DNA of 64,000 bases from Polytrichum commune. Lineage: Eukaryota; Streptophyta; Polytrichopsida; Polytrichales; Polytrichaceae. Location: contig OX485804.1 in assembly GCA_950295325.1 (NCBI GenBank), positions 20,336,001 to 20,400,000 of the forward strand. The letters are read 5' to 3'. Below are positions 1 through 20,912 of the stretch, piece by piece. Numbering within the stretch: position 1 is the stretch's first letter; every line of letters begins with the position of its first letter. Made by a program: the position numbers and the translations under genes. The notes below the pieces were generated by a model. That model saw only the letters and a program-made list of their open reading frames with translations, was not told the DNA's origin and made no database searches.

Positions 1-2790
1 TGCGGATCCCAGTTTGGGACATGGTTTTTTGACTCAAATCAAACAACATTATGATTTGTATTATGAAGAACCTCAAATGAATCAAGAAAAACTTCAGCAT
101 CTTGTGACATCGTAAGTATATGTTGCGCAGAAGGTTAAATGGTTGGGGCTGTAGAATTCAACTCCTGCATTTCGTATGTCTTTGAAATTTCCAAAGATGC
201 CTATTTCCGATAAGGCTTTTGATTTGTGGTTATAGAAAACAACATTTTGAAGTCATGTAATAATATTTCGTTGAAATCTGTTTTGATTTGAATAATTGTA
301 ACTATTATTTTCATATTACATGTATTCAAAAAATTTGTTCTCACTTGTTTTTTACTTTTTCTTTCAACAGTGGGCTAAAGAAGCTCTTGCTCTCTAGGAA
401 TCCACAATTTCTGAATTAAACATCACCATCAAGATCGTTCCTGAAACGGTGTAACCTTTGTCACTTTTTGTTGATTATGTTGAATTTTAGAGGGTTACTT
501 GTTAGGAAACGACATTTTTCAAATTGTTCAAATCGAATGATGGCATTATAAAAAACAAGATTTTTGATAAGCAACATGGGGAACTTCAAGCCATGAGGCG
601 GGTTGTTTATAGGTATATGTGATATTTGTGTTGAATATATTTTATGTCTGGCATTCTTAATTTTTTTGACTTGGTTCTAATTTTTTGGTTTACACAGATA
701 CTTTAAGCGTGTGTTGTTGCCTGCCAATGCTTTAGATAAGCTACCAACATCTTTTGACAATTTTATGGATGTTCAATCGGAGAATTCAATGTTCACTCCT
801 GAAATATGCAAGGATTGGAATGAGGTCCATTCGTATGAATGCGGATGGTATTTGGATTGTCCTAAGAGGAAAACCCTGCATTCCAAATTGGAATTGCGTA
901 ATCATCTTGAGCCAACATTTGTTCCACCTACAGTTGAGGAAGATTTCTTACGTAGTGCACCCATTGAAGGCAAGATGAAGAATAATACTAAAGTGCCCGA
1001 ACAATCCAAAGACAATGGTCTAATGAATGATGAACCTTATGGCAAAAAACTTAAGGTTTCTAAGCCTTCAACTTCATCAAGTACCAACCATATTCTTACT
1101 ACCATTTTGGAGTCTTTTATTTTTTCAGAATCAAGACTAAAGTTTCTCAAACTACATAATGTAGTTATGATAATGACTCATTTTAAATGATTATTTTTTG
1201 AACATATTGAATGTCAAAGAAAAAACCAACTCTTGGCCTCAATCTTTTCATGACATCAATGCATTTTTTACAAAGGTATTTTTTTGCCGATTTTAAAAAA
1301 AAATGTTAAATAATAAATCCAATTTTGTTTTGCATTTTTTGGCTCAATAATATACTGAACGTTTTTTTATTGTATTTATGGTGTTCAAGTTGGTGCAAAC
1401 CGCACATTTTACTTTCAAGGTGTTCCGAAGGCAACACCAACAATTGATTTAGTTATGGCAGATATTCCGGAGGGGCTTCATGTGCCTGGAATTTTAACAC
1501 CTTCGTCTTTCATACCTTCTTGGAATGAAAATTTTAATAAATTACTTATTGTTTTTTTTTCATTTTGCATGCAATATCTTCACGACGATGGTGTTTTGTT
1601 GATATTTCATCCTGAAGATCCAAAGTGGACGAAAGAATTGTCTACATATTTTATAATTACTATTTCAAAGTTGGTCATGGACCTTGGACTTGTGTGAACC
1701 CACTTCGTCTAGCCAATCTTCGCAATCCAAACAAAATGTTTAGTTTCACAACTCCTTTCATAATAATTTTTACTTTTTTTAATGAACCACGTTGTTTGTG
1801 TACATTATAGTTTGATTGGTTTGTTATTTTACTTATGTTACATTTGTTGTGCAGACCATCAAGTTCACTGCCATCTTACTTGTACGCTCTTTCAGTGATA
1901 GTACTCGATAAAAACGCATGGTTTGTCTTTTCAAATGAATATTGACAAAGATCTTTCGGAGAATGATATGAATTTGGATGATGATATTTTATATAACTTC
2001 ACGAATACTAGTTCTCAACGAATGAGAGATGATGGTATCACACCTTGGAGAGGCCCGCGAGAAAAACATTCATTGTTCTTCCAATGTTTGATTGATGCTT
2101 TCTCAAAACCCAAAGACATTGTTACAGACTTCGTTGCTGGCACATGTATAAAACATTTTCTTTGTGCTTTGAAATTATTTTATTATGTCTTATTTACAAA
2201 CTAACATGTTCTCATTTATTGATCTTTTGATAATTGTTTCTTATCTCTTTGATAGGACCCTCCATACATGCTTGCCGCACTTTGAAGCGTCACCTCTTCG
2301 CGTTGGAAGGTGATAAAGATGTTTTTGATTCCGTCTTGAAGTCTTTGATTATACAATCTCCTCTACCTATTGGCAAATATATCAATTTTGATGATTCGGA
2401 TGATTCTTCAATTGTTAATCACAAGGTCATCAATATATTTTGTGAGTAAGTTTTGTTTGTTTATCTTGTTCGAAAGCTTCATATGGTTGATTGTATAATT
2501 TTCACTTGCATTATATTGTATATGTATTTAGTTGGATTATTATGGATATTAACACATCTATGTTGTCATGTGCTAGCAATGTGATATCACAATGTCGCCG
2601 ACGTTGGCGACCTTTTTTTGAAGATTTAAATTTTGTAGCAAGTCCATCACCTCCACGAAGCCTTTCTATCTATGCCGAGACCATGGCTTCCGTTCTTGCT
2701 GCTCTATCTTCCCATTCCTTTACCCATAGCAAATCTAAACGGTATAATCGTCGGGTTTTGGAGTTCATAGATTTAGAGGCCGAATCATAA
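1..2790 (+). pseudogene. Degenerate DNA amino-methyltransferase-like gene, 5' end outside the window
   Basis: Several exon-like blocks separated by AT-rich GT-AG introns: 2-111 (donor GTAAGT at 112), from 371, 506-612, from 698, about 1390-1700, 1923-2150, 2257-2446 and 2575-2790, ending at TAA 2788. The block order fits a beta-class DNA N4/N6 amino-methyltransferase. IDLVMADIPEG (about 1447-1479) sits where motif IV, (D/S)PPY, belongs. YLHDDGVLLIFHPEDPKW (about 1576-1629) matches the following strand. KPKDIVTDFVAGT plus ACRTLKRHLFALEGD (about 2109-2311) matches the SAM-binding motif I region, split by an intron. The catalytic PPY is absent. An in-frame TAA lies at 417-419, and some splice phases do not join cleanly, so I call it a pseudogene. 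The C-terminal exon (2575-2790) is open. It could instead be a fast-evolving expressed relative with lost catalysis. Related bacterial-type N4-cytosine methyltransferases are known in Marchantia, but the link here is inference. Confidence 0.55.
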
Positions 2791-3321
2791 TCAACATCCA
2801 TCACTTTAAGTTATACTGATAATTAGTTTTTTGTTAGCACGTGTTCAACTCTCATATTTATACTTGGTATCAATACTTTAAAATACATTAACTTATGATA
2901 TACCTTGAAGGACTTACAAATATTTTGTATCCAACTCTATCTTTTTTGCACTCTCTATATTTATGTTGTATAATGACTAATTACAAAATTTAGTATCATT
3001 GGACCATGTTTTGTTTTATTGTTCAATGTGTTCATATTATGAATGTTAATGATCATCATTATCATGAGCATCATTCACTTCAACTTTGTCCATTCCATTG
3101 TCATACGGCATGCAATACAACTATGAAAATTTGTATATGATAAATATACATATGCCCCTAGTCGTGTACATATTGGTCTTTTTCGTTGCTCACTACTCAC
3201 AATCTAGCATTCATGTTGTTTGTCCTTCCCAATCTTCTTATTATTGAACCCTAAAGAATTATTTCTTTAGGCCACGGTTATAGGATACTAGGGGTCCTAT
3301 TACCAAATATTTTGTTTTCTT
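2791..3321. other. AT-rich intergenic stretch
   Basis: I see no gene here. It is the 3' flank of the methyltransferase-like pseudogene. Short imperfect ATCATCATT and GCTCAC words occur near 3050-3065 and 3189-3199. Confidence 0.5.
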
Positions 3322-3373
3322 CACTGCTCACAAATTACCGCTCATCGCTCATTGCTCACTGCTCACCGCTCAT
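3322..3373. repeat. GCTCAY minisatellite
   Basis: Six copies of GCTCA(C/T) separated by short spacers form an irregular tandem array. Single related words lie upstream near 3189. No coding potential is evident. Confidence 0.7.
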
Positions 3374-3684
3374 AAGATAGCACTCCCCCTGAGAGGGAGG
3401 AAGTACTCTTACGGTGACGCTTGGTCAAACATGAACATGGTTTAGAGGAACGGGCTCCCATTCACATCGGTTTACAAACTTAACCCCGATGTTATTTTTA
3501 TTTTTATTGTATTCTACAAGGTAAGAGACCACAACCACCAATAGCCTCATGAGGACAGACAAAAGCGGAAGAGGAGAGTGTCACAAAGGCCTTCTACGGA
3601 GTCCCTTATGTGGGCGGGTGGGATCGAACGTGCTCATGGAGTCATGGCCGCCCTTATTAAGACTCAAGGCATGTTAGTTATGAA

Positions 3685-4138
3685 TAGCTAAACATATAGA
3701 TACAAAGTCAACAACTTATGAGTTCGGATTTTTAGTCATGACAAAAATAAGACAAGGGACCATCTTACACCGAGTGATAGTCTTAAAACCACATAAATGG
3801 ACTATGTTTCACAAAGATGAAAGTCCGTTGCCTTGGACTTCGAGATGAGGATAAGTAGACGTTGCGAAACCCAAGCCACACTCAAACCATACCGCACAAT
3901 ACTCAAATGTATAGCTTAACATATAAATACAAAGGCAACAACCTATGAGTTCAGATTTTTAGTCATGACAAAGACAAGACAAGGGACCATCTTACACCAA
4001 GTGATATTCTTAGAACCACATAAATGGACTTTGTTTCACAAAGATGAAAGTCCATCGCTTCGGACTTCGAGACGAGGATAAGTAGACGTTGTGAAACCCA
4101 AGCTGCACTCAAACCATACTGCACAATACTCAAATGTT
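3685..4138. repeat. Tandem duplication, two copies of about 227 bp
   Basis: The unit beginning TAGCTAAACATATAGATAC at 3685 recurs at 3912 as TAGCTTAACATATAAATAC, and similarity runs on to about 4138. The copies differ by scattered substitutions, so the duplication is not recent. Confidence 0.85.
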
Positions 4139-4200
4139 TAAGATAAGGCGTATGTTTAAGATAAGGAATCGAATCACGTGTGCAAAAGGAGAATTGCTAA

Positions 4201-4563
4201 GGGCTAGTTCACACTATGCCCAAGTCGAGAGGAGAAGCATCACTTTTCTAGACCAAACTATGTCGAGAGGAGAAGCCTTTGGGCTGAAAAAATATATTAA
4301 AATAATCCACTTGAAAAAAAAGTTCAGCCTCTCGACGGAAGTTTGGGTCCATCATTTTGCTCGACTCAAACTTTGCTCGAGAGGCCGAACTCTTGGCACC
4401 ATAACTGCCTAAAAGTGTTGCCACCTAGGCTCTTTTGGAGGCGACGTCCTTTGGACTTCGGCCTCTAGTGTGAAGGCCGAGAGGACGGACTTTGGACATT
4501 TCTACATTTTCATTGGTCCAAACGCTTCTCCTCTCGAAGTTTGGCCATAGTGTGAACCGGCCC
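4201..4563. mobile_element. Tourist/PIF-Harbinger-like MITE, family A copy 1
   Basis: Imperfect terminal inverted repeats of about 44 bp start GGGCTAGTTCACACTATG on the left and GGGCCGGTTCACACTATG on the complement of the right end. They are flanked by TAA on both sides (4198-4200 and 4564-4566). A GGGC start and a 3-bp TWA duplication are typical of PIF/Harbinger. No transposase is present. The interior repeats CTCGAGAGG-like words. Confidence 0.85.
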
Positions 4564-4685
4564 TAAGTATCATGGATACAGAACGGAGACCGAATTAATG
4601 AACTGCTTTTTGAAGTTTGTACATGATACCTAATGGTGTTCAGTTCGAGTCATGTATCACATTGTGGCTTCACTATTAGAATTTA

Positions 4686-5098
4686 GGGCCACTTCGCACA
4701 CGAGCCCAAGAGCCGTGGCCATGAAATTGTTAGAGCCCAAAAGAAAGTGCTATTTCAATGAATTTGTATTCATGCGGGCCCTCACACATGATAAAATAGA
4801 ACAAATCAATGGTTGTGAGCGTTTGGAGTGCCATGGTCTCCCAGTGGTTTTGTGTGAGACCTGCCTCTAAGAAGTGGTCTATGAAAATAGTCCAAGTGAC
4901 CATGAAACATGATCCATTTGATGCCATGTAGGAATCCATGTAAACTTTACCTCAATTTTGCATTCACTTGTATACTCCGTTGGTCCCTCAAGCGTCGTGT
5001 GAAGCGAACTTGGACGGGCTCCACCTTTTCCACCAACGAGAGTGCTTGAAGAGTACTGGTCACGGGCTCTCAGTCTCGTGTATGAAGTGGCCGGGCCC
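4686..5098. mobile_element. Tourist/PIF-Harbinger-like MITE, family B copy 1
   Basis: The left end is GGGCCACTTCGCACACGAGC and the complement of the right end is GGGCCCGGCCACTTCATACA, with TTA at both flanks. The interior matches the copies at 58887-59392 and, more distantly, 30614-31182. It lies only 122 bp from the family A element, so these sites appear to attract one another. Confidence 0.85.
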
Positions 5099-5223
5099 TT
5101 AGCCTGGAAACCTCCATTTCAAACGTAGGTCATTAGCTGTAGATTCTTGAAATGCACCCTAAACTTCTTTCCCAAAGTGCTTCTGAGGAAATTGAAATAA
5201 ATTTCTCCAGTTTTGTGAGCAGA

Positions 5224-5236
5224 GGGGGGGGGGGGG
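5224..5236. repeat. Homopolymer G13
   Basis: An uninterrupted run of 13 G in otherwise AT-rich sequence. Similar runs recur throughout the window. Confidence 0.95.
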
Positions 5237-8200
5237 CTAGGGTCACTACTACAAAATTGTGGCATACTTACGTGCACATCCATTAAATGGAATGTCGCCT
5301 CTCTGGCATTCAAGGGCCATTTCCAGTATTGTTTTGGTTTTGGGTTAACAACATTAAATTTGCCCTTCATTACTAGAAACTGTGATAGTTATCCATTTAC
5401 TGAAGCCGCACTCAAGAATCCCACGTTTTGTTATAATGCATGGACAGAGAGGATCAGACCTGTCTTCTAGAATTTTGTGTGACTCTAATGGGATGCCATG
5501 TCCTCACACAGCTCACACATACACATTAACTTAGTGGACGGCCAAGAATATGTTCTCCTGCATACTCAATTCTCCTGAGCTTTGAGCATGATCCCCGCAT
5601 GCAGTCAAAGGGTTTAATATGATCAAGCTATGTGAGTGCACCTATCTTTGATTTATAACCTAGACTGGATACTAATTGCTCTCCTTAATTTTGTCGTGGT
5701 CGTGTGACAAGCTTCAGTGGTTTCTCCTCTCCTTCAAGTGAGCGTGGTTTCCTTTGGTTGAGATTCACTCTTTGTGTTGGCCGTTTGACCTTTAGTCTTA
5801 GGTTGAATGAGTAACGTATGATATACATGTACATATCCATCTATGAAATATACATGTATGATATTAACATTATTATGAGTCGTCCATGATTACTGTTTCA
5901 AGAATTTAGAGGACATTCACCTTGACTCTAGAAGTAACAAGTTCGACGATCATGTTCCTCACTTTAAATTGATGAAATGTGCCCTGGTAAAATTTCATCT
6001 CGTTATCGAACCTCTACATATGTTGAAATGCATCTAAACCTTGACTTACATTTTTTTGAAAGTGTGGCTTGACTTGACGTCCTCATGTGTGTCCCCACTC
6101 ATGGAGCCACAAACATGCCGCTATCGACTTTTGAGGTTTTTCATGTTTCAAAATAATTTAAGATAAGGGAGCATGCTTTGTTTAAAGCCCCAACATGTGT
6201 GTTAAGGGGATTGTTCACTTCCCTTATCCAAGCCAATTATCTTATAGAGACCTCATAGAATTTATACATCAAGGGTGGGATAGAATATGCGACCTTGCCA
6301 ATCAAAAACTAATGATGATATATCCATGTCTTATTCAAACACCCATTTCTGGGTGCAAAATGGCTCAATATTATTCTAAGAATTAATACGATGGCTTATT
6401 AGTCGAGATAGCCAAAAACTCAATGCTCAACACCCACTCAACACTTATTATCTTATGTACACCCATATGACCACTAAAAAAGATCACCTATATGTTCTTT
6501 GAAAATCGATCACAAATTGAAGTTTAGTCACCTTAATCTCATTCTATGGCACTAGATTTGTATAAAATCTACTATTTGATTGGGTTTTGGTCTTACATCT
6601 ATTGCAGATAATAGAAGAGGCCAAACCTCCTGTAAGTGAACCTAAGCGTAATAAACCCATCTACCTTAGAGGCCCATACCAACAAGCTTGATATTGCCAC
6701 CTCTCTACCTAATAATCTTGACAAGTGATAGAGATAGAGTGGATTAAAACCAACTAAATTGGAAGGTGAGTATGGCCCTACAATTGGCTTTTGGATCACA
6801 TCGGCAACTGCCTCATTCAGTTAGCATGTGTCTATAGATCATGAGGGATTCACTATGAGTTGGTGATTATTGACCTACGTCAATTGAATATTTTGATCAC
6901 AATAGTAGATTTTCATACTTCTTCCAATGATGTAGGGCGATTGCCGAGGACGCATATGTTGGAAGTGATTGGAGCAAAGTTGCAAAAAGTATTAGGGATC
7001 AAAGTGAAGACTTTTTTTTTTTCTTTTTTTTTCTTCTTCTTTCTCTTTGATTGATCATCACGTAGACCCTCAATTGTGTGTACTTAATGAAGCACCTTAG
7101 AATTATGTTTGTATTTTGAAGACATAGACCAATCTCATTACAACATGTGTTTTTTTTGTTGTTTGCTTTTAACAATAAGCCTTGCCATTTACCACTCATA
7201 TAGAGGAGTGAGACCACCTAAGGCCCACACACCTTAACCACATACATGACACATACAAGAGAATGGGTGAGCTACTGCAATTCAAGTAGATATGCATAAA
7301 GGTTAAGGCAACTCCATGTTAATGACATAAATTCTTGTAACTCTGGACGAACTTTGAGGTCCCACAACTTATCCTTTAATCAATCCTATCAAGCATTAGG
7401 TTATGATTTGCAATCTTTATCATGTTTCTATATTTTAGAGTTGAAAGACCTCAAAGTGTGAATGATGAGTTTGAATCAATGTTGAACAAATTATTTGACA
7501 AATGTTAAACTAGCACTGAAAAAATATTAAGCCTTGAAATCCTAAGGGCATGTTTCAACAATACCAACTCGACAATAAATGTTGGCAATCACTTGCATTT
7601 CAAGATGAGGATGCTACATTCCCTACAACTGCCAAGGTAAAGAAGTCATAAGTGAATGCTTTTTCTGAGATTGAAGCATTCTGATGGGAGATCTTCAACA
7701 CACATATTTTCTAGGTACTTGCAAATGTGTGTGGCAGAGATAGCCAAAATTCAATACACATGCGTACGAGATTTGTATGATTTTCTCAACACAAGATTCT
7801 TTTGTTTATAAATTATCCATGTAGGTCCTTTCATGGAACACTCACTATTTATTTATTTATATTTGCTTCAAGTGCACTCCTTGTCACTCCCATGTTTCCC
7901 ACATTTTGGAGGTGCACTCATCCCAAAGATCGTTTTAAAAACTTGTACAAGTGATGGGTCCATCCACTTTCAAATCATGTTACATGCCTTCGTGTCAAAT
8001 TTAGATGCATGGGAGAGCTAATTTGATCACATTCTAGGCTGAATACCATATCACAAGGTGAGCGACCACTTAGTGATGTCAATGGCCACATTTGAAGGTC
8101 CTTGAACACTATCCAAGACACGTATTTGGACTAAGACACCTCTACCGTACCGAGAGGGTATTAATGTCATATCGTGTCATCAATTTGTAACATGTAAGGT

Positions 8201-8489
8201 TCCATGTAAACGGGACTAAGTAACATGTCAACGTATGATGTATACGGTACTAAGATAAGGCACAAAGGGAGCTACAAGCCCGAGGAGAGCAATGGGGGGA
8301 GCTCTCTTGATGTCAATGCCTCCTCCCTCCCATGAGGCTCAAGGTTAGAACATTAGCGTGCTTCTCTACGACATACTTGCTTTGTGAGTTCATAACCATT
8401 TGGTGTCTACGTGATGTTGAAGGATTGGGGGACAAGGATGGCCTCCCAAGCTCATAGCCTTGTCCTTCTTCCCAGACTCATCTTCAACC
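5237..8489. other. Gene-poor intergenic sequence
   Basis: Only short ORFs of at most 72 codons occur, with no recognisable domain. A T-rich, CTT-containing stretch lies at about 7012-7050. I could not pair any terminal repeats here. It is probably old, decayed repeat DNA. Confidence 0.45.
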
Positions 8490-9000
8490 TTAGAAGATGT
8501 CCATTAAAACCAAAGGGCTTAGAGGAGATGATGCTCAAATGGTTATGTCCAGTATACCTCCTAGAATTTTTTGTCCATGGAATGTGACCCAATTTGTGAA
8601 GTCAATGGATCAGCTTCACAAAGTGCCTGCCATCAACAGCATTCTTGCCTAAACCTCTTTAAGATGTATTGTTGATTAGCACGTGTCGCATTAAACAAAG
8701 GCCCCAATCAATCAAAACATGACTTCCCCAGAGCAGAATCTCATCCTCCCCCGCCCTCAATCTAAGCCTTAGATCTCCGTGATGGATGAGCTTCCAAGAG
8801 ATGACGCTCAAATAGTTATGTGATGTGGTAATTTGAGAGAATACTTCCTGGTATGTGACGCAATTTGTGTTATCAGTAGACTCATTTCACAAAATGCGTG
8901 CCAACATCAACATTCTTGCCTGAAACAGTTCAATGTGTGCTGCTAATCAACACATGCTTCACCGGACTAAGGGCCAGGTAATGAATCGAAACACAAAACA
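8490..9000. repeat. Tandem duplication, period about 273 bp
   Basis: GAGATGATGCTCAAATGG at 8525 recurs as GAGATGACGCTCAAATAG at 8798. Later blocks (cacaaaRtgcgtgcc, cattcttgcctgaaac) follow in the same order. The two copies are diverged. Confidence 0.75.
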
Positions 9001-9792
9001 TAACACAAAACATCGTTCTGCTTTCTCATGTGAAATATTCAATAATAGCTCAAGTGTGCATGTAATGAAGGACTCTGTGATCGTTACAAACTCAACGCCC
9101 GGCGAGGCTGAAAAGGGAGCACACATCCTTTATTTTAAGTGAAAAATAAGCAATATGTCTTCACACTCAGGTTGCGGAGAGGTCTATATACAGTGTTGGT
9201 GCACATCTTAAGAAGGCACCACAAGGAATCGATTGAAAACTGACTACCTACTATGATCAATTCCAAAATTGTCGGATGCGCCTAGCGGATGATGAAGTGA
9301 CTGAGTAGCTAATTCTACTGTTGATGCAGTGATGAAATCAAAAACAGGTCAAGAGGCGACATGTAAAGCTAAGGTTATAGCTATACAAAGGGGCCGACAA
9401 ACGGCTCAGAATGCGTTACGGTGCAAAACTACATCATCAGTGCCGGAGTCATTTGGATTCACGCATCAGATCTGGCCGAGCCCATTCATGGCGGTCCATT
9501 CAGATCAAGCACTTTCAGACCAGACCATAACTAACGTTCGACTATACGGCTGTGGAGCGCTTGCCTGGGAACGGAATTTAGAGGCCACTACTCTCTTGTG
9601 CGAATACAAGAAGTTGGCTGCATGGATCAATACTTCTTCCAGCTCAAGGAGGAATCGTATTGAATCCAAGTTGCAGGAGATCGACACATGTAGATACCGA
9701 ACGATGATGTAATCATACCATGACGCGAGGCTGTGCCAAGTGTCGACTTGCGCGGAGCGAGCGGAGGATTGCCTTCCAGGGCCGCGGCAACT
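9001..9792. other. 3' flank of the LAZY1-like gene
   Basis: More GC-rich than the repeats to the left, resembling the gene region that follows. ORFs of 127 codons (+, 9329-9712) and 60 codons (-) overlap but show no known domain. The longer ORF may be chance or part of an untranslated exon. Confidence 0.35.
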
Positions 9793-9798
9793 TTTATT
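9793..9798 (-). terminator. Candidate polyadenylation signal of the LAZY1-like gene
   Basis: AATAAA on the minus strand, about 20 nt after the stop codon at 9819-9821. This would give a very short 3' UTR, so a more distal signal may also be used. Confidence 0.35.
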
Positions 9799-9818
9799 GA
9801 AGGCTCAGATGATAAAAA

Positions 9819-9838
9819 TCACATTTCAAGTACAACAA
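9819..9838 (-). other. LAZY1: Coding exon 5 of the LAZY1-like gene (20 nt)
   Basis: Acceptor CCAG is followed by TTGTTGTACTTGAAATGTGA. Joined to the last base of exon 4 it gives Phe-Val-Val-Leu-Glu-Met-stop. Arabidopsis LAZY1 is likewise described with a last exon of about 20 nt. Confidence 0.85.
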
Positions 9839-12800
9839 CTGGTCACACAAGAAGAACAAGAGTACACAAGGTATTAGAAAACTCTCTTTTCGAGATCCAA
9901 ATAGACCAAAAAAAAAACCCATGGTGAAGTGCTATTTACTATCCATCATACTATATCTATTAGGGTTTGGAACCTCAAAACGATGAATATGCTTCGCAAT
10001 TAAGAGTATATTGCTCAACTCAGTAAGCTCACGAGTAGCTCTCTCTTTCTCTCTCTTTCCCTGGGGTTTGAAGCTGCCTTAACTTGTGTGCCATAATCTC
10101 ATTTGAGTGAACAACTTCGCTTGAAAGCGGGAAACGAAAACTTACATTCGGAGTCAGTTTTGATCCACTTCCCGTCCCGGGGCTGAGGAATCTCGTCGTC
10201 GTCGTCGTCTCTTCTCGTAGGTTCTCTTTGTGTCGGTTCGTCCGCTGTTGGCTTCTCTTTCGTCTCTGCTCTGTGCCTTGTACCGATGATGCTGACACTA
10301 CTTGTCGATTGAGCTAATGTCGCACATTGGCTTCCAAGAGGAGAACTAGTGGGGGTACTTGAGACGCTAGGAAGCTGGACCTCCCGTGTGCTGCAAATGT
10401 TTCCAAGGGGTTGACGATCGGTGATTGGACTTGAAATACCAAGAGGCCAGCCCGCTGGTGTGAACCGCGTGGCAGATGAGTGCTGGTTACGCTCGGTGCG
10501 ATTCGCTATGCATGGTGGACCCAACGCCTGCGCAATCACAAAACGTGCATGGCTGAATTGACGAAAAGCTCATGATTGTCGCGACTCAAGAATGTCGTGC
10601 AAGACCAGGACAGCGAACTCCACAAGAAACCGATCGATCTCTATTTCAAGCTATACATAATCATCCTATTCATTTATAGATATTGAATGCTTTTCAAGGC
10701 CAGATCCCGGGTTCTAACTACGAAATATCTGGTGCCTCAATCTAGCTAGCAAGGGTTCTACCGTAGCATGTGAGACATATGCTTCATTGAAGGCTTCCAA
10801 CTTTTGATCGCCTCTAGAGAATGGTGGCCAAATCACATGAGAATCAGGTGAAAGAATCAGGTGAAAGAACCTCGATCCCGCTTCGAAGGGCAACATAGAT
10901 CAAGAATTGAATTGGTACCCCGCTGTCAATAAACGATTGAAGAGGCTTACCTTGGATAAATGAGGCTTCGACGGCGGACAACGTTGTAGATTAGCGAGCA
11001 AAGAAGTAGGCGATCGTTGTGCAAACGTCGACGCAGAGGATCCATTATTCTCAGGTGAAGATCTCACAGAAGATGTCTTAATCTCCGGTGCTACCTTTGC
11101 ACTAGTGGTACCCTTGCAGGTCGCTCGCCACAACTGGCCAAGTTTACTCATGGTCATACCCTTGCAGCCCTGTTTTGTGAGTGTCTTCTTGGGATTCGCT
11201 TGATCGCAATTGACCGCCTTGTTTTCGCCCTTAGGAAATTTCTTCTTGGTGGTAAAAAGTCCACACATGCTGGTTGAGTAGTATTCGTCGTCGGAGCTGG
11301 CATCCTCCTGAACGGAGCTGCTGAGGGGAGGAGGAACAGATTCAAGCCAGTGAGGCACCAGTTTGGGAGTGTTGTTGTTGTATAACGCAGGATCGATCTT
11401 CTTAAAGTCCGATGGCAACGCTGTGAGGAGGACTATGGGCCTAAGTCCATTAGGAGAGCGGCGGTTGTTGTCTTTGTACAAAGTCAATGCTTTACTTTGA
11501 TTGCACTCAGACGTTTTGTGATGATCCGTTTCGGTGCATTCAGTTTTGTGGTCACCAAAAACTGGATGCTCGTGTTTCTTGCCGGAGGTAATTTCAGGTA
11601 TCCACCTCTGGTGCCAAGTTTTATCTTCTTCGTCGGTGTCCACAGTCTCGTTGTAGTTGTAGTTTTCTGACGCCATACCACCATTGCATGAGAACGTGTC
11701 AAATCCAGGTCCAAACAATTGATCCGCTCCCTTCTCATATTGATTTTCCTCCAAGGCATTACGGATGCCAGCGAGCTGGTCCAACGCAAAAGTGCCGATT
11801 GCGAGAAGCCCCTCCTGTTCGTGTGTGAACACGAACCGGATTGTCTCTTGCATCTTCTCATCCTCGGAGGCGCAGTTGTTGCCGACGGCCTTATGGAACG
11901 CACTTTTCGCATCGTCGTTGCTATAGGCCGCTTGCAATTGCTGTTTCAAATTTCGGTACTGGACTCGATCTTCGAAGGGGTGAGGTGAGGTGGTTTTCCT
12001 GAACTCATTTCCCCACTGCACGCCCTTCCGATCCGCTCCAGTGATCGGCCCGTGGCTGTTCTTCAAGTCTGAAAATAAAGAGCTGTTCGGTGATCAGAAT
12101 TTGTGACGTTCTCTCTCATAATGCAAACTCTATGTTGGATCTGATGCGCAGGACACTTGTGCATAGCAATGAACCTATATTGATAAACATGACCGAACCT
12201 TACTCAAGGTTCCTATTTTTCTACGGCATTGCTCCAACTCTCGGGGGGCATATGTACAAGAATGCATTGGATCAATCCGAAATTGGTACTGCTCGACATG
12301 AGTCGGAGAGAGGACCAAGAATCTTGTGACGATGAGTGAATAGAACGGGTTCCCGTTCCATCTAGTATAACAGCTGCCGATACATGGCGAGCAATGGCAA
12401 CACATCCAAAAGCCATTTGAACGGAAGTAGTCGAGGACTGCACCTGAGTTTTTAATTTGCTGTATCGGTTGTGGAGGAGGATCCTTTCTCCGTCCCCACC
12501 CAAATAGCTGCAATACCCGAAAGTTGCAACAAAATCAGTCGCGCCACTAACAAAGTCAGTGAGTGATATCTTGTCCCTACTCAATATGCATTCCTTCTAG
12601 TTTCTGAGCATCGGATTACTCTCACCCTCCGAATTAAGAGGGAAGAGGCTCTGCAGAGAACAACAAAGCTTATATTGCTATACAACGAGGGAGGGGAGTC
12701 CACCATGGCGGTTGGAAAGATCCCCACTCCTTCACAAACCTGCAACAAAGGCATAGCGAGCCGCAATTGTACTTGCGGACGCCCATTAACGTACCTTCAT
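9819..12800 (-). CDS. LAZY1: LAZY1-like protein (IGT/LAZY family), five exons, 529 aa
   Basis: Model on the minus strand: exon 1 12795-12800, exon 2 12444-12507, exon 3 10951-12068, exon 4 10146-10527, exon 5 9819-9838. All junctions are GT-AG (donors GTACGT, GTGCAG, GTAAGC, GTAAGT). The total of 1590 nt equals 529 codons plus stop, and every junction keeps frame. Hallmarks: N-terminus MKLFGWGRRK (region I, family MKxLGWM), GLLAIGTF at residues 110-117 (the IGT motif), a basic KKKFPKGENK cluster near 298-307, an acidic DDDDD at 503-507, and C-terminus KWIKTDSEFVVLEM (516-529), the conserved C-terminal motif. Known family role: LAZY proteins act at the plasma membrane and on statoliths, recruit RLD proteins through this C-terminal motif, and redirect auxin flow in gravitropism. 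The length is somewhat above typical (about 350-420 aa). I infer a functional gene; expression is not shown. The gene symbol marks family membership, not proven one-to-one orthology. Confidence 0.9.
12795..12800 (-). other. LAZY1: Coding exon 1 of the LAZY1-like gene (6 nt)
   Basis: ATGAAG followed directly by the donor GTACGT. It encodes only Met-Lys; exon 2 continues with LFGWGRRK, rebuilding the family N-terminus. Without this micro-exon the ORF starting at exon 2 has no ATG (it opens at a TTG). This decides the start. Confidence 0.85.
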
Positions 12801-14050
12801 AGTTGCTAGGAGCCTCTAACATGCAATGTCGGCGATGGCCAAACTCTTTCCACTGCAAAACAGCACAAGGAAGAAAAGAAAACCACGTCAAAAGGCGAAG
12901 ACCCAGACGGTTACGAAGCATGTCGCCTTCAGACAAGGCAATGTGAACTTCGGTACTCATCCCGAAGGAGACACAAATGCCAACCACAAAACCAAACGCT
13001 GCGTAGACTCAGCCGGAGACTACAGTTGCGACAAACATTGCATTGGAGAAGGAGGTCGAAGGATTTAAAGGAGGAAAGACAGCGGCTCAGGAACACAACA
13101 CAACTGCAACTACAAGTTCAGATCATCAAAACTATCTCTATAACAATCAGTGAAGTGCTCATGAGCCAACAACAAAATCAAAGGCTGCGTAGACTCAGCC
13201 GGAGACCATAGTGAGCAGGAAAGCAACAAACATTGCATTGAAGAAGGTGGTCGGTGGATTCAACAAAGGCAAGACAGCGGCCCAGGAACACGACTACAAC
13301 TAAAAAATAAAACTACAACTACAACTCCAGATCATCACAACCATCCCCACACCGACCAGTGAAGAACTGCTCCATGAGCCAACTAACGAATCCAGCCCCG
13401 ACTTAATGACAGATGCATTCAGCGTGCCGAATACTACTCCTTCCACGCCCAATACTGACTGCAACAATCAGTGTCCACCATCATCATCACCACCCTGACC
13501 TCTAATCCAATTCTCTCCCCGACACGCCACCAGCCGACCCCACCCACCACCCCAGATCATCCCCCTCCATCATCCCGGCCCCAACACCATGACCACCTTC
13601 AAAACCTGATTATCATCACCACCACTACCCCACCACCAACATAACAAAAATCCACTCTTCTCCAACGTCACTCCAGATCACCGCACTCCCCACCACCACA
13701 CTAAACCATGCCATCCCATCTCACCACCTCCTCTCTGCGCAAAATCATCATTACGCATACCTCCTGTAAAAAAGATAAAAATATGACCTCCGAGCTGCCG
13801 AATCGCCCAGCCGGGCCACAACCAGGCCTGCTGCCTCTTCTGCTTCTTATGCGACGAGATTCTCACACCGCAAAGGAGATCTCTGTGCGAGGGCCGGAAA
13901 CTTTGGCCGAGTGAAGGAATTGAAGCGGACTTCGTGCACGCGATTAGTGCCGGTTAGCGTGACGCCTTCCGACGCTCTCAGAGATTGAGAAAGAGAGAGA
14001 GAGCGAGAGGGGGGGGTAGAGAGTGTTCTGGAGACGAGGGTTCGAACCAC
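12801..14050 (-). promoter_or_regulatory. Upstream and leader region of the LAZY1-like gene
   Basis: No coding exon is seen beyond ATGAAG. On the gene strand the region is purine/pyrimidine biased, with a CT-rich tract at 13988-14010 of the kind often found near plant transcription starts. I cannot place a TATA box or start site with confidence. The C-rich stretch 13430-13800 is non-coding by eye. Confidence 0.35.
12979..13395. repeat. Tandem duplication upstream of the LAZY1-like gene, period about 186 bp
   Basis: CTGCGTAGACTCAGCCGGAG at about 12999 recurs at 13185, followed in both copies by ACAAACATTGCATTG, AAGACAGCGGC and CAGGAACACRAC in the same order. It lies 180-600 bp before the start codon. 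Confidence 0.75.
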
Positions 14051-14374
14051 GGTGGAGGCGGGTGGAGGGGGCTTTGTATGTCCGGGGGGGTCTAAAATGG
14101 AAGGCCGGGAAATTTAGCGCGCGGGGACCGGGGGGCTTTCCAGAAAAAATGAATCAAGAAGATTTGGGCCAATGGGAGGGCAGCCTGCGGGGGTCAGTTT
14201 CATTTGAGGAATCATATCGTCAGTGCAGCTGGATTTGTTGTCACAGGACCTACTAGCTGATATGAAGCTTATAGGTAGGGTGGTGATGAGGCCTTTTATT
14301 TTATTTTTCTAATGCACTGATCTGTGGGGGCTATATTTGGGCCACAGTTAATTGGCAAATGCCGCAATACCTAC
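14051..14374. other. G-rich upstream stretch
   Basis: G-runs near 14008-14015 and 14085-14133. There is no recognisable gene; a 77-codon plus-strand ORF here looks like chance. Confidence 0.4.
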
Positions 14375-14542
14375 CATATTTGCGATACATTGCTGGTTGT
14401 GAAGTTAAACACATTTGCGATAACTTGGTGGGGTTGTTAAGTTATTCATATTTGCAATAAATTGGTGTGGTTGTGAAGTTAAACATATTTGCGATAAATC
14501 GGTGGGGTTGTTAAGTTATTCATATTTGTGATAAATTGGTGG
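14375..14542. repeat. Short tandem array, unit about 36 bp
   Basis: About five imperfect units of the form CATATTTGCGATAAATTGG, each followed by TGGGGTTGTTAAGTTATT or TGGTTGTGAAGTTAAACA. The two tails alternate, giving a higher-order period near 72 bp. Confidence 0.85.
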
Positions 14543-14787
14543 ATTTGTCTACAAAGACTGCACATGTGGGTCACATGGGCTTTTGTTGTGTGGTTCAAAA
14601 CCCATTGGAGTGGACCCACAACTCCAACCTCCCTAATGTCACGCATGTGGCATCCAAAGTGCACGTGGTATTAAGGAGGTTTGTGGTGTTGACATGGGCG
14701 CACGATAATAGAAAATTAGTGTAGCATGTGACATTATGGAATAACACAAAGTCAACACTGCAACAGTGACAATGATGACAACGTGAT

Positions 14788-14952
14788 GATGGTCCGAGAT
14801 GTCCCTAAACTACCGGATGAGAGTGGAGAGGTGCCCAAAACCAAATGCAGTGGTTAGCGGTTCAATTCCCGGCTGTGAAATCTTCTCTCTACTTGCCGGA
14901 AAGAACTACCTAGGTGGTCGCGCACCTCCTATGTCCCAAACCAAAAAAGAAA
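14788..14952 (+). mobile_element. Short tRNA-like SINE, family 2 copy 1 (165 bp)
   Basis: Flanked by 14-bp target duplications GATGACAAYGTGAT (14774-14787 and 14953-14966; one mismatch). It contains a box-B-like GGTTCAATTCC and ends in an A-rich tail. A second copy with its own duplication lies at 44637-44799, which confirms the element's ends. Confidence 0.8.
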
Positions 14953-15152
14953 GATGACAATGTGATACATGCGAGGGTGTGGTTTGAATTCTTTGGTGGA
15001 TTGTTTTGATGTTAAAAACTATGATACATGGGAGGGAAATGTGACAACAAAGAGGGAGATTTAATCTAAGCACATATGTTACCCTAGGGTTTGGAGATAT
15101 AAGAGAGGGATTGACATCACGGAGGTCAGGGTGTAATTGGAACATCCCTGAG

Positions 15153-15412
15153 ATACAATACATATAATATTTAGTGTCGCTTACAATATTATTATTACAC
15201 GTTTAGGGTCACACACTACAAAGTTACACGTTCCTATATCTTTTTATCAGTAATGTATATTTTACCAAGTAAAAAAATTTAATGTTCTACAATATCCAAA
15301 CAACCGATTCGACCTTTGTTAGTAAAAAAAATGAGATGTACATGAAACAATTATAGTGTTGCATAATTCCAAGTAGTAGGTGACACTAAAATATCATATT
15401 TAGTGTAGATTA
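15153..15412. mobile_element. Small TIR element with TAGTGTCRC subtermini
   Basis: The left end reads ATATTTAGTGTCGCTTAC. The complement of the right end reads ATATTTTAGTGTCACCTAC inside an extended inverted match. It resembles the termini of the larger family at 15625, 24025 and 34340. No coding capacity. Confidence 0.5.
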
Positions 15413-15624
15413 TAACTGCTTCAAAGGGCATATTTGTATATGATCTTTTATAAAAGACAGCCCCAGGCCATAGAATGAATTGGCTGTGTGGAGTAAGGAA
15501 AGGAATGGAATGCATGCTGGAAGGGAACACAATTACTTATGCAAAAGAAAACTTGCTATTCAAAGCACTCGTCCTTAGTTGCCACCATGAGTTTGGTTAT
15601 AGGCTGTGGAAGTCGGTGGTTACA

Positions 15625-16246
15625 GCTACACCAAATGTTGCTATACTGTTTATGGTAGTTGGTGTCACTTACACTATTTGCAAAAGGCCTAAACTAGATG
15701 CCTAGATGTTTCAAAGTGTCACGTTTGCTAATCACCAATATGATATTATTTGTCAACATAAGCAATTTTTTAAAGTGTGATTTTTTTACATTTTGACATT
15801 TAGCATAGTCCATTAGGATACTTGAGACGATAGTTTTTGTGTTTTAAGATACAAGGGGAAGATGTTATTAAGCATACTAATGGCAAGTGTCATGTGTTTA
15901 CATTTTAATATGCAAGAGGAAGATATTCTTGAGCATGCTAATGACAAGTGTCATTCGTGTACACTTTAGTCAACTTGTAGATCACTGCATAACATAGGCA
16001 TACACCTCATAGCACTATTGAACATACTTATGCCAAAATATTAGTGAGGGCACTTGAATGCCAAGTGTTTTTTTTGGGGGGCACAAATCGGAAATTCAAT
16101 TGCAAAGAGAACTTGAATGCCAAGTGTCATGAGGTGACACCAATGATGAAGTTGTTGATCATTAGTGTAACCTAGCATTACGCCTCAAAAGTAAGGTAAG
16201 TGACACTATTACACATGCCGCATTGAATACTATAAATGGTGTACCT
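15625..16246. mobile_element. CACTA-like non-autonomous element, copy 1
   Basis: Related along most of its length, in inverse orientation, to 34340-34778, and partly to 24025-24310. Both ends carry a C(A/T)ACACCAxxTxxTGG-like terminus and clusters of GTGACAC/GTGTCAC. Repeated subterminal words are typical of CACTA elements, but I could not fix a 3-bp target duplication. Confidence 0.5.
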
Positions 16247-16589
16247 TCCTTACAAGGCTTACACTGCAACTAGAAAGTCCAGACTCTACTAACTTAAATT
16301 AAAGCATGACCATGATCACTAACACAAATGGGATGCTCACTTGGGTAACGTTACTTTAAAGGGAAGTTAGTCCCCCCATATGTCCCACATGCTCCCTCTA
16401 TGTGAGCAATGTAAAATGTGGGTCCCGTGATCAAAATTGATTTCTTTCAATACATAAGGCTTTACATAGAAATAATTGAAGCTAAGGATCTTATATGGCC
16501 AAATATTATGAGGTTATTGTTGATAGTTAGTACTCTCGTAAAGGAGTTGAAATTTCACCCCTTTAAAGTTCATATTTGAAGGGGTGGAA

Positions 16590-17520
16590 GGCTTTAGACC
16601 TTGTACAACCGCTAGCCCATGGACTTTTGGGGCTAGCGGCTAACCCAATAGCTAAGAGTTATGGCTGAAAATGGTACTTGGAAAGAAAAGAGGGGGCTAG
16701 CCTAGCTATAGCAAGATTGAGACCTGAAAAATATGGGCGAGCCAAGGCCCAACCCCACCTAACTTTAGGGCGTCATTTTAAATGCTAAGAGATGCCCCAC
16801 TTGTAGGGTTGGGCCCATTCACACACATTGTGGTTCGGTTCGGGCTATTTTGTGGCCTTGGTACTTAATGATTGGTTTTAATTTTATATGTATTCCTACA
16901 TATGGGTTGTTTTAGCTACGGAATTGCCACGTCACCCCTAGCAATGTTGCCTTCTCCCTACCTTCTAAACCTCTCATGGTTATTGCTAAACTAGTCTCCT
17001 AGTTTTGGTTTCGCTCCCTCCACCACCAAAGTGATTCTCTTTGTTGCGGAGTTTTTCTTTTACACAACAAATACCACTAGCCATTATTAAGATGACCTCC
17101 CCCAAAACCACGTTTTTGCAGGACTTTAGTAGCAAGTTGGCATAAGTAAGCGCTTGGTGGGGGAGAGATTTAAGCTAAACAATTCGATTGAGTCAAAATC
17201 AACCTCTTCATTTGCACAAAAGAGGATCCAATTGGGTTTAGGGTGACCCAACACACAGTGAGGCGCTTGATGAAACGACGCCTCCTTAAATTTAACATAT
17301 GAGCTAGCTTTTCAGGTCAGCTAGCCCAACTATATGGCTAGATCGAGGGCCTAAAAAATATGGGCTAGCCTAGCTATGGCTAGATCAAGGCCTGAAAAAT
17401 ATGGGCTAGCCCAACTATGGCTAGATCGAGGCTTGAAAAATATGGGCTAGCCCAACTATAGCTAGATCGAGGCCTTGAAAAAAATGGGCTAGCCCAACTA
17501 GCTATTGGGCTATAAAATGT
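16590..17520. repeat. GCTAGCC-rich region with a 41-bp tandem array
   Basis: At 17329-17512 a 41-bp unit (TGGCTAGATCGAGGCCTG then AAAAATATGGGCTAGCCCAA) repeats about 4.5 times. A related single unit lies at 16690-16740. The outer edges, around CCCAATAGCTAAG (16646) and CTAGCTATTGGG (17499), are inverted to each other, so the whole may be a decayed TIR element. Confidence 0.65.
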
Positions 17521-18829
17521 CTAGAAGGCTTTAGAACATGTCCACACATTGTTTTACCAAAGCCTAACACAAAGGGGTGCTAAGTCAAGTGACATTACCT
17601 TAGAGGAGACTATATATGCTCCACATGTTCACTCAATCAATGTTCACATTGTGGTCTTATGATCAAAATTAACATCTTACAGTAGGTACACAAGGCTTTA
17701 CATAAAATAGTTAAAGCTAAGATTTTATTTGATCAAAGATTGTGAGATTTCTTGTGGTCAATTTCCTTACACAAGAGTTGTAACCCACCCCTCTAGAAGT
17801 TGCATATTTGATGGAAGGAAGTCTTCAATGGGGAGACAACACCTCTAAATTGATGATAATGAGAACGAGTGGAGCCTTTGAAATGGCGGTATGGGTTTAG
17901 AGGTGCCCATATTGGGAATATGTGGTCAAGCTCTTACACATCCATTGTACAAAGAGTGTGAACAACATTTGTTAATGAAATTGATTACTTGTCATTCAAT
18001 TCATCAAAACTTATATTTTTTATAAATGTTTATTTGGCACACATGATCATCACACTGATGCAAGTACTAAAGTTGAGACAAAACTAGTACAATAAGCAAA
18101 TTTGTGAATTATTAGACCATCTTTGAAAAATAACAAATGGATAATTTCAAATTTTACTATACTTAGATAGTGTGTGAATAGGGAAACCTAACAACACTTC
18201 TTTGGATAGAAACAACAAATGAGGATTAATAATCAATAATTTTCATCAATATCATGATTATGTTGGGAAGCCCGTTCATTGGTTGGGAGATTGGTTATGA
18301 GTTCTCTAGAGAACCAAAAAATGATATGGTAAATCCAATTTATTTACTCTTCCAGAAACACCAATATAAATTAAACCTTGAACACTCTATAAAACAACAT
18401 TCTCTTTTTAAAAAAGGCTTGCAATTGGTGCAGAGGGGGTTGGAGGATTGATGTGGCAACCACAATGTGGGCTCAAAAAAAAATGTTTAGGGTTAAAAAC
18501 ATGTGTCATTAAGTACTTAGATGTGCATACACTATCTTTTGAGACCTTATGACTTAACGTAAACAAATAGTTGTGGGTAACAAAACATTATAAGGTTTCA
18601 ATCATAACTTCCTACTACAAGCACATGAGACTTAGGCAACACATCCTATGTCCATGAAAATTATCTTTTGTCCCTAAAAATTTCTATAAATCTACCATTA
18701 TGATAGATTTGTGTACTTTTTTTTACCAACACGGGATGTGTTGTCCAAGTCTTATACATATGCTCGTAGTGTCAATATGAAGGAAACCTTGAACAATCCC
18801 CTAAAACAACATTCTCATTTCAAAGAGCA
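17521..18829. other. AT-rich intergenic sequence
   Basis: Only short ORFs, none recognisable. TATAAATTAAACCTTGAACACTC near 18364 recurs in part near 18785, suggesting old repeat DNA. Confidence 0.4.
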
Positions 18830-20912
18830 CCTCCAACCCACGACTTGCCCTTTTTCAATCTTGGTTGTGACACTTCAATCAAGAAGGTTGTGTTGGGTAG
18901 CTAGAAGGGGGGTGTTATTTTTTCTTCGAGGGGAACACAAATATGCTATTAGCAAAGCATTGATGAGATCACCACACAAAATGCAATAGGATACTTGCAT
19001 GCTTCAGGAATGGATACATGCTTTCAACCCTAAAAACTCCATTGGATCGACATTTCCATGATGGATAATAGTTAAGAACTTGTCTTTTGAACACCATGAT
19101 GATGCATATGATATTGCAACTTGCTCGAGTAGTTGGAATAATAGATCATATAGACCAAAGCCCAAGGTTCTATGTGAACTTGGCTATGGAAACAAGATGG
19201 GAGACAACAATGGATCTTAAGATCCCCAAATAGGACCCAACCTCAATAAGAGTTGAAATAGACTATGATCATTTACCATTGAGGTGCCGTGCATGTTTAA
19301 CCTAGAAGCATCAAGCTAGAGATTGTGAAACATTGAGGAGCCTATACACACATGCCCCATCACCCGGATCCAACTACTTGTGGTAATAAATCAAGAAACT
19401 CATCAATAATGGTTTTACCTATGTGAGGGCCTACAAACTCTATCACCAAGGGATCCAACGTGTTGGTGACATTTGGGATATCGATAATTGTACTTGCATC
19501 TTGTGGAACGAGGTACAAACTAAGCTCAATCCCATTGTGCTTGATACGGATGATTGGACCCTACTTACCACCAAAATCATGGACCTTTGGAGACATAGGT
19601 TGGCAGACAACCAATTTGTCATCCACCCCGGACAATGGGTTTTGCTTCTACGTTGAAGGCGCAAATAATCCAACCTATGTCCTTAGGTGCTCGGCCAAAT
19701 TTGCCCTCTCATGTGAACACCAACATTAGCTCTCTCTACCTTTTACATATTTATGTTTTTCAATGGCCACCTACTCCACATGCCTTAGTGAGTGGGAGAA
19801 CCTACTGGCGATACAACTAGCTTCTTCCATCATGTTGAAATCATTCAAACCAATAGAGGACAAAAGAAATAGGAAATTACCTTCTTCTATGGCAAAATTG
19901 CCACACTCAGTTGAGATTTGGACCATTCAAGGTGGGGTGGCTTTTATTTCCTTTATATCACAAAGCTTGACAAAGACTTAGTCATTAACATGATTTCATA
20001 CATAACTTGGGTAGTGGACAAGTGGCAAGGCCACCTCCTAGGGAGCTACCAATTATATTGGTCACGTGTTTGGGACCATACGCGCTCCAACAAGAGGCCG
20101 CTTTTATATGTTCCATTTGGCACAAGGTGGTCACAATTAATAAATGGAGAGCCAACATAGCTCCAGTTTCCATCTCCAAACAATGTGTTTTATGCCTCCC
20201 TAACACTAGTTAATCAAACAAGCATAAGTTTTTGGCATGCATCCAAGCCCAAAAGAGCGTGGTGGTGGATGACTTATGCAAAAAAAACATTGTGGGGTTA
20301 GAGCATCCAAACATGATAGTTTCCATTGGAAACAACCTATCTTTGGGGAGAATACTCTTAAGGACTTTGTAATTAGAATTAAGATTTGGCACCTCCTTTG
20401 TAGCAATCCGCTTTGGACAATTTGGATTGAACATACCAACAGGGTGTTCACCCAAGAACAATTACATGAATCCAAGGTTAAATACTTTATTTGGGATGAC
20501 CTCGTTATATATGCCAAGGTGGCTTGAGCTATGGTTGTAAAATTTGTCAAGATTAGTGCCTACTCGACTGATGCCCTCCTCAAATGTTTTGACAAACTTG
20601 GGGGGCTAGGAATATCCTTTTGTAGATGGGATACTATGATAATCACTTGGAATTGGCACTTTGGTGGTTACTTGGTGGCTTGGGGGTTATCCTTGGCTGG
20701 TTGAGAGGGGGGGGGGGTCCTCGGTTGGGTGGCTTGGTGGGTGGGTTGTCCTTGGTGGGTCATTGTTACTTGGTACTTGTTATTCTTTATGTGGTGGTGT
20801 GGCGCATATGAGGGGCTCTGCCTCCTCTCAAAATGGGTGCGTCTTCCTTGGTTCTTAATGTTGTGGTGTTGACTTTTTGTCCCAAACACACACACACACA
20901 CACACACACACA
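18830..20912 (+). mobile_element. Degraded, internally deleted L1-type LINE (L-A)
   Basis: ORF1-type sequence comes first. GVLFFLRGEHKYAISKALM (about 18907-18963) and EWIHAFNPKNSIGS (about 19008) match the ORF1 copy at 53.9 kb. A zinc knuckle CX2CX4HX4C with one stop inside lies near 19289-19330. The sequence then jumps to the 3' part of ORF2: YKLYHQGIQRVGDIWDIDNC (19432) and the zf-RVT-type block with SIWHKVVTINKWRANIAP (about 20116). Endonuclease and reverse transcriptase are missing, so several kilobases were lost internally. A GT-rich 3' tail region ends in (CA)n at 20885-20912. Frames are broken by many stops and shifts. Dead copy. Confidence 0.75.
20885..20912. repeat. (CA)n microsatellite, probable LINE tail
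   Basis: About 14 CA units directly after the LINE 3' region. The related LINE at 37.6 kb ends in (GAA)n at the same place, so the tail appears to be a variable simple repeat rather than poly(A). Confidence 0.7.

Follow-up and report, generated by a model that had tools for sequence, protein, structure and literature searches.

A probable pair of IGT/LAZY-family genes in the moss Polytrichum commune, with canonical C-terminal tails and an RLD-type gene in the same genome

Introduction

The IGT/LAZY family, comprising LAZY1, LAZY2-4/DRO1/NGR and TAC1, helps plant organs grow at the correct angle to gravity. Its genes are described as having five exons, of which the first contributes six nucleotides and the last about 20 nucleotides (PMC9702816). 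The same exon arrangement is described in PMC10663514, and the available text of that paper reports that TAC1 is without domain V. In the accessible parts of PMC6448822, the genes start with ATGAAG with one exception, and five exons are found in most of 17 genes. Several conserved regions have been defined. Plasma membrane anchoring of AtLAZY1 requires domain (region) I (PMC10663514), region II is defined as GphiL(A/T)IGT (PMC10663514, PMC6448822), and a WxxTD motif together with a VLE(M/I)-type motif is described at the C-terminus (PMC6448822). The biochemical role of this C-terminus is illustrated by Arabidopsis LZY3, whose CCL peptide (residues 274-287) binds the BRX domain of RLD2 with a KD of 9.7 nM through named contacts at W275, K277, I283, L285, E286 and I287 (PMC6941992). 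The same type of interaction, BRX-like proteins included, is reported in peach (PMC10823791).

It has already been published that these genes carry 6-nt and ~20-nt exons, that such exons are conserved from moss to higher plants and that annotation frequently gets them wrong (PMC7893674, PMC9702816, PMC6448822). Among the models of one reference set, 56 of 124 had the expected domains, and the likely cause of the shortfall was misannotation of the short exons (PMC9702816). Short end exons are thus a published hallmark of the family and not unusual. The position of non-seed plants in the family is less clear, as far as the available text of PMC6448822 indicates: the distinction between LAZY1 and DRO1 types is called “enigmatic” in lower plants, and the C-terminal motif of Physcomitrella is described as variable. 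In the literature searched, which consisted mainly of reviews, work on seed plants and papers on other subjects and covered subscription journals thinly, often through partial texts, we found no moss LAZY gene that had been tested.

In this study, we analyzed a 64,000-nt stretch of the Polytrichum commune genome (contig OX485804.1, positions 20,336,001 to 20,400,000), hereafter named the window, in which a sequence-only reading had proposed a complete LAZY1-like gene. Since the exon anatomy is already published, what is new here is one more member of the family.

Results

Gene model of copy A

The candidate gene, hereafter copy A, lies on the minus strand of the window, with a full coding span of 9819..12800 and introns of 287, 375, 423 and 307 nt. 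The coding part of exon 1 (12795..12800, 6 nt) consists of ATGAAG, encoding M-K, and is directly followed by a GT donor; the 5'UTR must reach further upstream. Exon 2 (12444..12507, 64 nt) encodes LFGWGRRKDPPPQPIQQIKNS plus one nucleotide and corresponds to region I. Exon 3 (10951..12068, 1118 nt) carries the IGT motif GLLAIGTFALDQLAG, corresponding to region II, and a YYST..CGLF block. Exon 4 (10146..10527, 382 nt) begins with the residues ALGPPCIANR and ends with DGKWIKTDSE plus one nucleotide, which contributes the opening portion of the C-terminal tail. The coding part of exon 5 (9819..9838, 20 nt) finishes a phenylalanine codon and adds VVLEM and the stop. AATAAA at 9793..9798 on the same strand, some 20 nt downstream of the stop, is a candidate polyadenylation signal by consensus match only.

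Joined in frame, the five pieces total 1590 nt including the TGA stop codon and encode 529 aa, with GT-AG borders at all four introns, so that the five-piece structure originally proposed was borne out on the minus strand. The accompanying description of both ends as micro-exons holds for the coding parts, of 6 and 20 nt, but not for the whole exons, which are larger because exon 1 also bears 5'UTR and exon 5 also bears 3'UTR. Upstream of copy A, a direct repeat is present in two diverged copies at window 12979-13364, with a spacing of 186-209 nt and parts that are 78-90% alike.

Family membership

With five coding exons and a last coding piece of 20 nt, copy A matches the definition of the IGT/LAZY family. 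Its product carries GLLAIGT in exon 3, in agreement with the published region II consensus, and ends with KWIKTDSEFVVLEM, in which WIKTD corresponds to WxxTD and VVLEM to the VLE(M/I) type (region V, CCL). The absence of region V from TAC1, as given in the accessible part of PMC10663514, argues against a TAC1 assignment. The claim of a complete LAZY1-like gene is kept as regards membership of the family and a complete coding region, both with sequence support, whereas the label “LAZY1-like” is better replaced by “IGT/LAZY family”.

A scan of the 529-aa product against Pfam-A, which may or may not include an IGT/LAZY model, returned no family and hence no profile that confirms membership. Searches against solved structures gave matches that we took as chance. 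The whole protein had a single match, a cytochrome (E 0.029). When the 28-residue tail was compared with PDB chains of at least 20 residues, none scored better than E 0.1, and the three nucleotidyltransferase chains found at E 0.1-0.11 were attributed to a chance likeness to GKWIKTD.

Chance controls

We evaluated how often the short end pieces would be expected by chance. The exon-5 signature, [FY][VIL][VIL]LE[MIL] and a stop right after AG, occurs once on both strands of the 64-kb window, at the claimed site, and a signature of this type was present in 1 of 200 dinucleotide shuffles. Similarly, AG followed by [LF][FWL]GW was found once, at exon 2, against a shuffle mean of 0.1 (n=40). In contrast, ATGAAGGT occurs five times in the window against a mean of 3.6 in 40 shuffles and is therefore uninformative alone; a single ATGAAGGT lies in the 2 kb on the 5' side of exon 2. 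The earlier argument that the structure is unlikely to arise by chance thus stands on the exon-5 and exon-2 signatures and on the second copy described below, but not on the ATGAAGGT start by itself.

A diverged second copy on contig C3

A second copy of the gene, copy B, was found from two weak matches on contig C3 in a DNA search; the region is hereafter named L003. On its minus strand, pieces of 6, 67, 713, 282, 250 and 20 nt give a coding sequence of 1338 nt, encoding 445 aa, in a guided model where all introns are GT-AG. The borders were picked with the copy A motifs as a guide, and the model is consequently not blind, but the DNA itself is separate and diverged and could have failed to accommodate it. 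ATGAAG forms the six-nucleotide first coding piece in both copies. Exon 2 of copy B (67 nt) starts with FFGWGRKKDPPP and has the same end phase as its counterpart, and the final piece has 20 nt as in copy A, with FLVLEM as the protein end. Where exons match, their junction phases are equal: 0 for the junction that follows MK, 1 at the end of exon 2, 0 at the start of the exon carrying GPPCIANR and 1 at the start of the last 20 nt. Copy B has six coding exons because one extra intron, its border placement being guided, lies inside the exon-3 region.

Outside the motifs the two proteins are poorly conserved, with 29% identity overall across 565 columns (BLASTP), which suggests that copy B is old. 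Over 394 aligned columns the proteins share 169 residues, 97 of which are encoded by a different codon in the two copies. The motifs themselves are much better kept: 26 of 27 residues are identical in the IGT block (13 of those via a different codon), 8 of 8 in GPPCIANR (six via a different codon), and 15 of 16 residues are kept in the tail block. Conserved blocks are also present between regions II and V, and we do not equate them with regions III/IV. Identity maintained through codon changes is, judging from the two DNA sequences, the pattern of purifying selection on a real protein. At the level of sequence comparison, the strongest support for the copy A model is this second copy on C3, whose DNA permits the same ends and the shared phases.

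Protein searches of the genome with both copies, at E values up to 10, recovered these two loci. One weak extra match, obtained with copy A on C6 (E 0.66), contains four stops and was judged to be chance rather than a third copy. The search scores the best candidates only, and two loci is a lower bound for diverged copies. A DNA search with window 1-20000, in which 39 of 17,758 candidates were scored, yielded at least 77 matches, apparently dispersed repeats; among the matches listed, none was near the C3 copy, and neither the window itself nor the known C3 match was included.

Local repeats were also observed in copy B. The exon-1 region occurs in three units at L003:6785-7600 on the minus strand, spaced by about 245-300 nt. 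ATGAAG|GTAC is intact in two of them (7040 and 7587), while the middle unit reads GTGAAGGAAGTAC. From their sequence, these units are possible alternative first exons of the same protein. Intron 2 (L003:5411-6338) contains about four diverged direct repeats with a spacing of ~230-250 nt.

The C-terminal tail and BRX-domain partners

Both copies carry the 14-residue tail whose Arabidopsis counterpart binds the BRX domain of RLD. In the LZY3 register, which we placed without the LZY3 sequence itself, the contact positions read W, K, V, L, E and M in copy A and W, K, L, L, E and M in copy B. Four of the six (283, 285, 286 and 287) are provided by the 20-nt exon, which lends sequence support to the suggestion that a model without this exon would lose the RLD-binding tail.

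We then sought possible partners in the same genome. A BRX family search gave eight exon matches, read as three loci: one BRX domain at C6 29.03 Mb, one at C2 36.50 Mb, where only the BRX end was inspected, and two at C6 12.41 Mb. At C6 29.03 Mb and C2 36.50 Mb, the BRX exons are bounded by proper splice sites. Upstream of the BRX exons at C6 29.03 Mb, a 745-aa open reading frame contains, as read by eye, RCC1-type repeats and a FYVE-like cysteine stretch. The RCC1-type repeats, FYVE-like stretch and BRX domain of an RLD-type partner are thus found together at this locus at the level of open reading frames. Once joined, its BRX domain matched the RLD2 chains 6l0v and 6l0w (E 1.6e-30 and 4.1e-30). 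All seven BRX residues named in the available text of PMC6941992 are identical in the alignment, their numbering being placed from the residue names.

Other features of the window and the genome

A dispersed repeat at window 1-3388 is probably a transposable element; the matches listed for it include long ones, 70-95% identical, on contigs C1 to C7. Window 4197-4570 holds a short dispersed element of ~370 bp, with a similarity of 94-96% to copies at five further places among the matches listed; its inner parts match in both orientations, as in a hairpin-type element. A tandem array at window 14375-14542 is made of 4.6 copies of a 37-nt unit, with 81% matches. Elsewhere in the genome, three LEAFY-like loci were noted at C1 40.57 Mb, C1 62.30 Mb and C7 8.64 Mb. 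The exon of the C7 locus, the sole one of the three compared with solved structures, found five chains. The best of them (E 6.9e-69, the next being 2.6e-51) was 4bhk, which we take to be the Physcomitrella (moss) LEAFY protein; the match thus points to a moss. Contigs C1-C7 account for at least about 380 of 408 Mb, with lengths of 70.3, 59.2 and 44.7 Mb for C2, C3 and C6 and lower limits set by match positions for C1, C4, C5 and C7, which suggests about seven large chromosomes.

Discussion

We propose that copy A is an intact moss IGT/LAZY-family gene with a diverged second copy on C3, working by the LAZY-RLD mechanism, and we give this reading a probability of roughly 0.88. The exon anatomy, the motifs and the BRX-domain partner genes are present in the genome. 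By analogy with the described proteins, the region I start would anchor the product at the membrane, and the C-terminal tail would bind the BRX domain of an RLD protein and bring it there. Auxin steering and a gravity response in this plant would be the steps that we infer to follow.

The tail could serve another purpose in the same gene. VVLEM might act as an EAR-like motif recruiting TOPLESS co-repressors, with a role in transcription rather than with RLD at the membrane. According to the accessible text of PMC6448822, wheat DRO1-like proteins bind TOPLESS in split-YFP and yeast assays, probably by their VLEM-type end, and IVLEM, of the same type as the moss VVLEM, is called EAR-like. This would offer another use for the tail, but not one that accounts for the preservation in both copies of the entire 14-residue hairpin, beyond VLEM, or for contact positions that fit the RLD complex. 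We consider it unlikely as a replacement for RLD binding, and the two uses are not mutually exclusive. A distinct proposal concerns the 20-nt exon, which could have been kept small for on/off control: retention of intron 4 would yield a protein without the RLD-binding tail. Reading through the exon-4 donor indeed leads to a short other ending after TDSE in both copies (ORF 10099-10569 in the window and L003 2420-2776), and the arrangement is common to two diverged copies and, according to published work, widespread in land plants. However, read-through of almost any intron gives some short ending, and these two endings are unlike each other, which makes such a splice switch distinctly improbable. 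The same degree of doubt attaches to its broader form, in which the start and the tail would have resided on their own tiny end exons since before the moss/vascular plant split and been kept because the choice of splicing or promoter switches function, intron-4 retention giving the tail-less form and the ATGAAG units of copy B serving as alternative first exons.

That copy A is decaying, its end exons being relics and copy B the working gene, could be argued from the 17 ATGs in the 700 nt that precede its start codon, a burden for an unspliced leader. Yet copy A has an open frame of 529 codons, four GT-AG introns and intact family motifs, and the residues that it shares with copy B were kept across many codon changes, so we regard decay as very improbable. 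Finally, the frequency of ATGAAGGT in the window and its shuffles would suit five coincidental open pieces without any gene. Against the same structure in copy B and an exon-5 signature this rare in shuffled sequence, the probability of such a coincidence is practically negligible.

On the preferred reading, one genome offers two resolved, probable moss IGT/LAZY genes, both with canonical tails, together with an RLD-type gene to match. This combination is a convenient setting for asking whether the LAZY-RLD module is older than vascular plants. A further point concerns Physcomitrella, where the C-terminus called variable in the available text of PMC6448822 might stem from a missed last exon.

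Compared with the described members of the IGT/LAZY family, the Physcomitrella homologue included, copy A shares the first coding exon made of ATGAAG only, five coding exons, GLLAIGT, WxxTD and a VLEM-type end in a last exon of ~20 nt. It differs from the Physcomitrella homologue in length (529 aa versus 431 aa, as cited in PMC6448822), and both Polytrichum copies have a canonical tail, unlike the variable one ascribed to Physcomitrella in the accessible part of that paper. Copy B has the ends, phases and motifs of copy A but differs from it in its length of 445 aa, its extra intron and its repeated exon-1 units. The closest counterpart of the proposed interaction is the Arabidopsis complex of the LZY3 CCL with the RLD2 BRX domain (PMC6941992; 6l0v_A, 6l0w_A), which, as far as the available description goes, is matched by sequence at both the contact positions of the tail and the contact residues of the BRX domain. 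W275, K277, L285 and E286 of LZY3 are identical in both moss copies, whereas Ile283 is replaced by valine or leucine and Ile287 by methionine.
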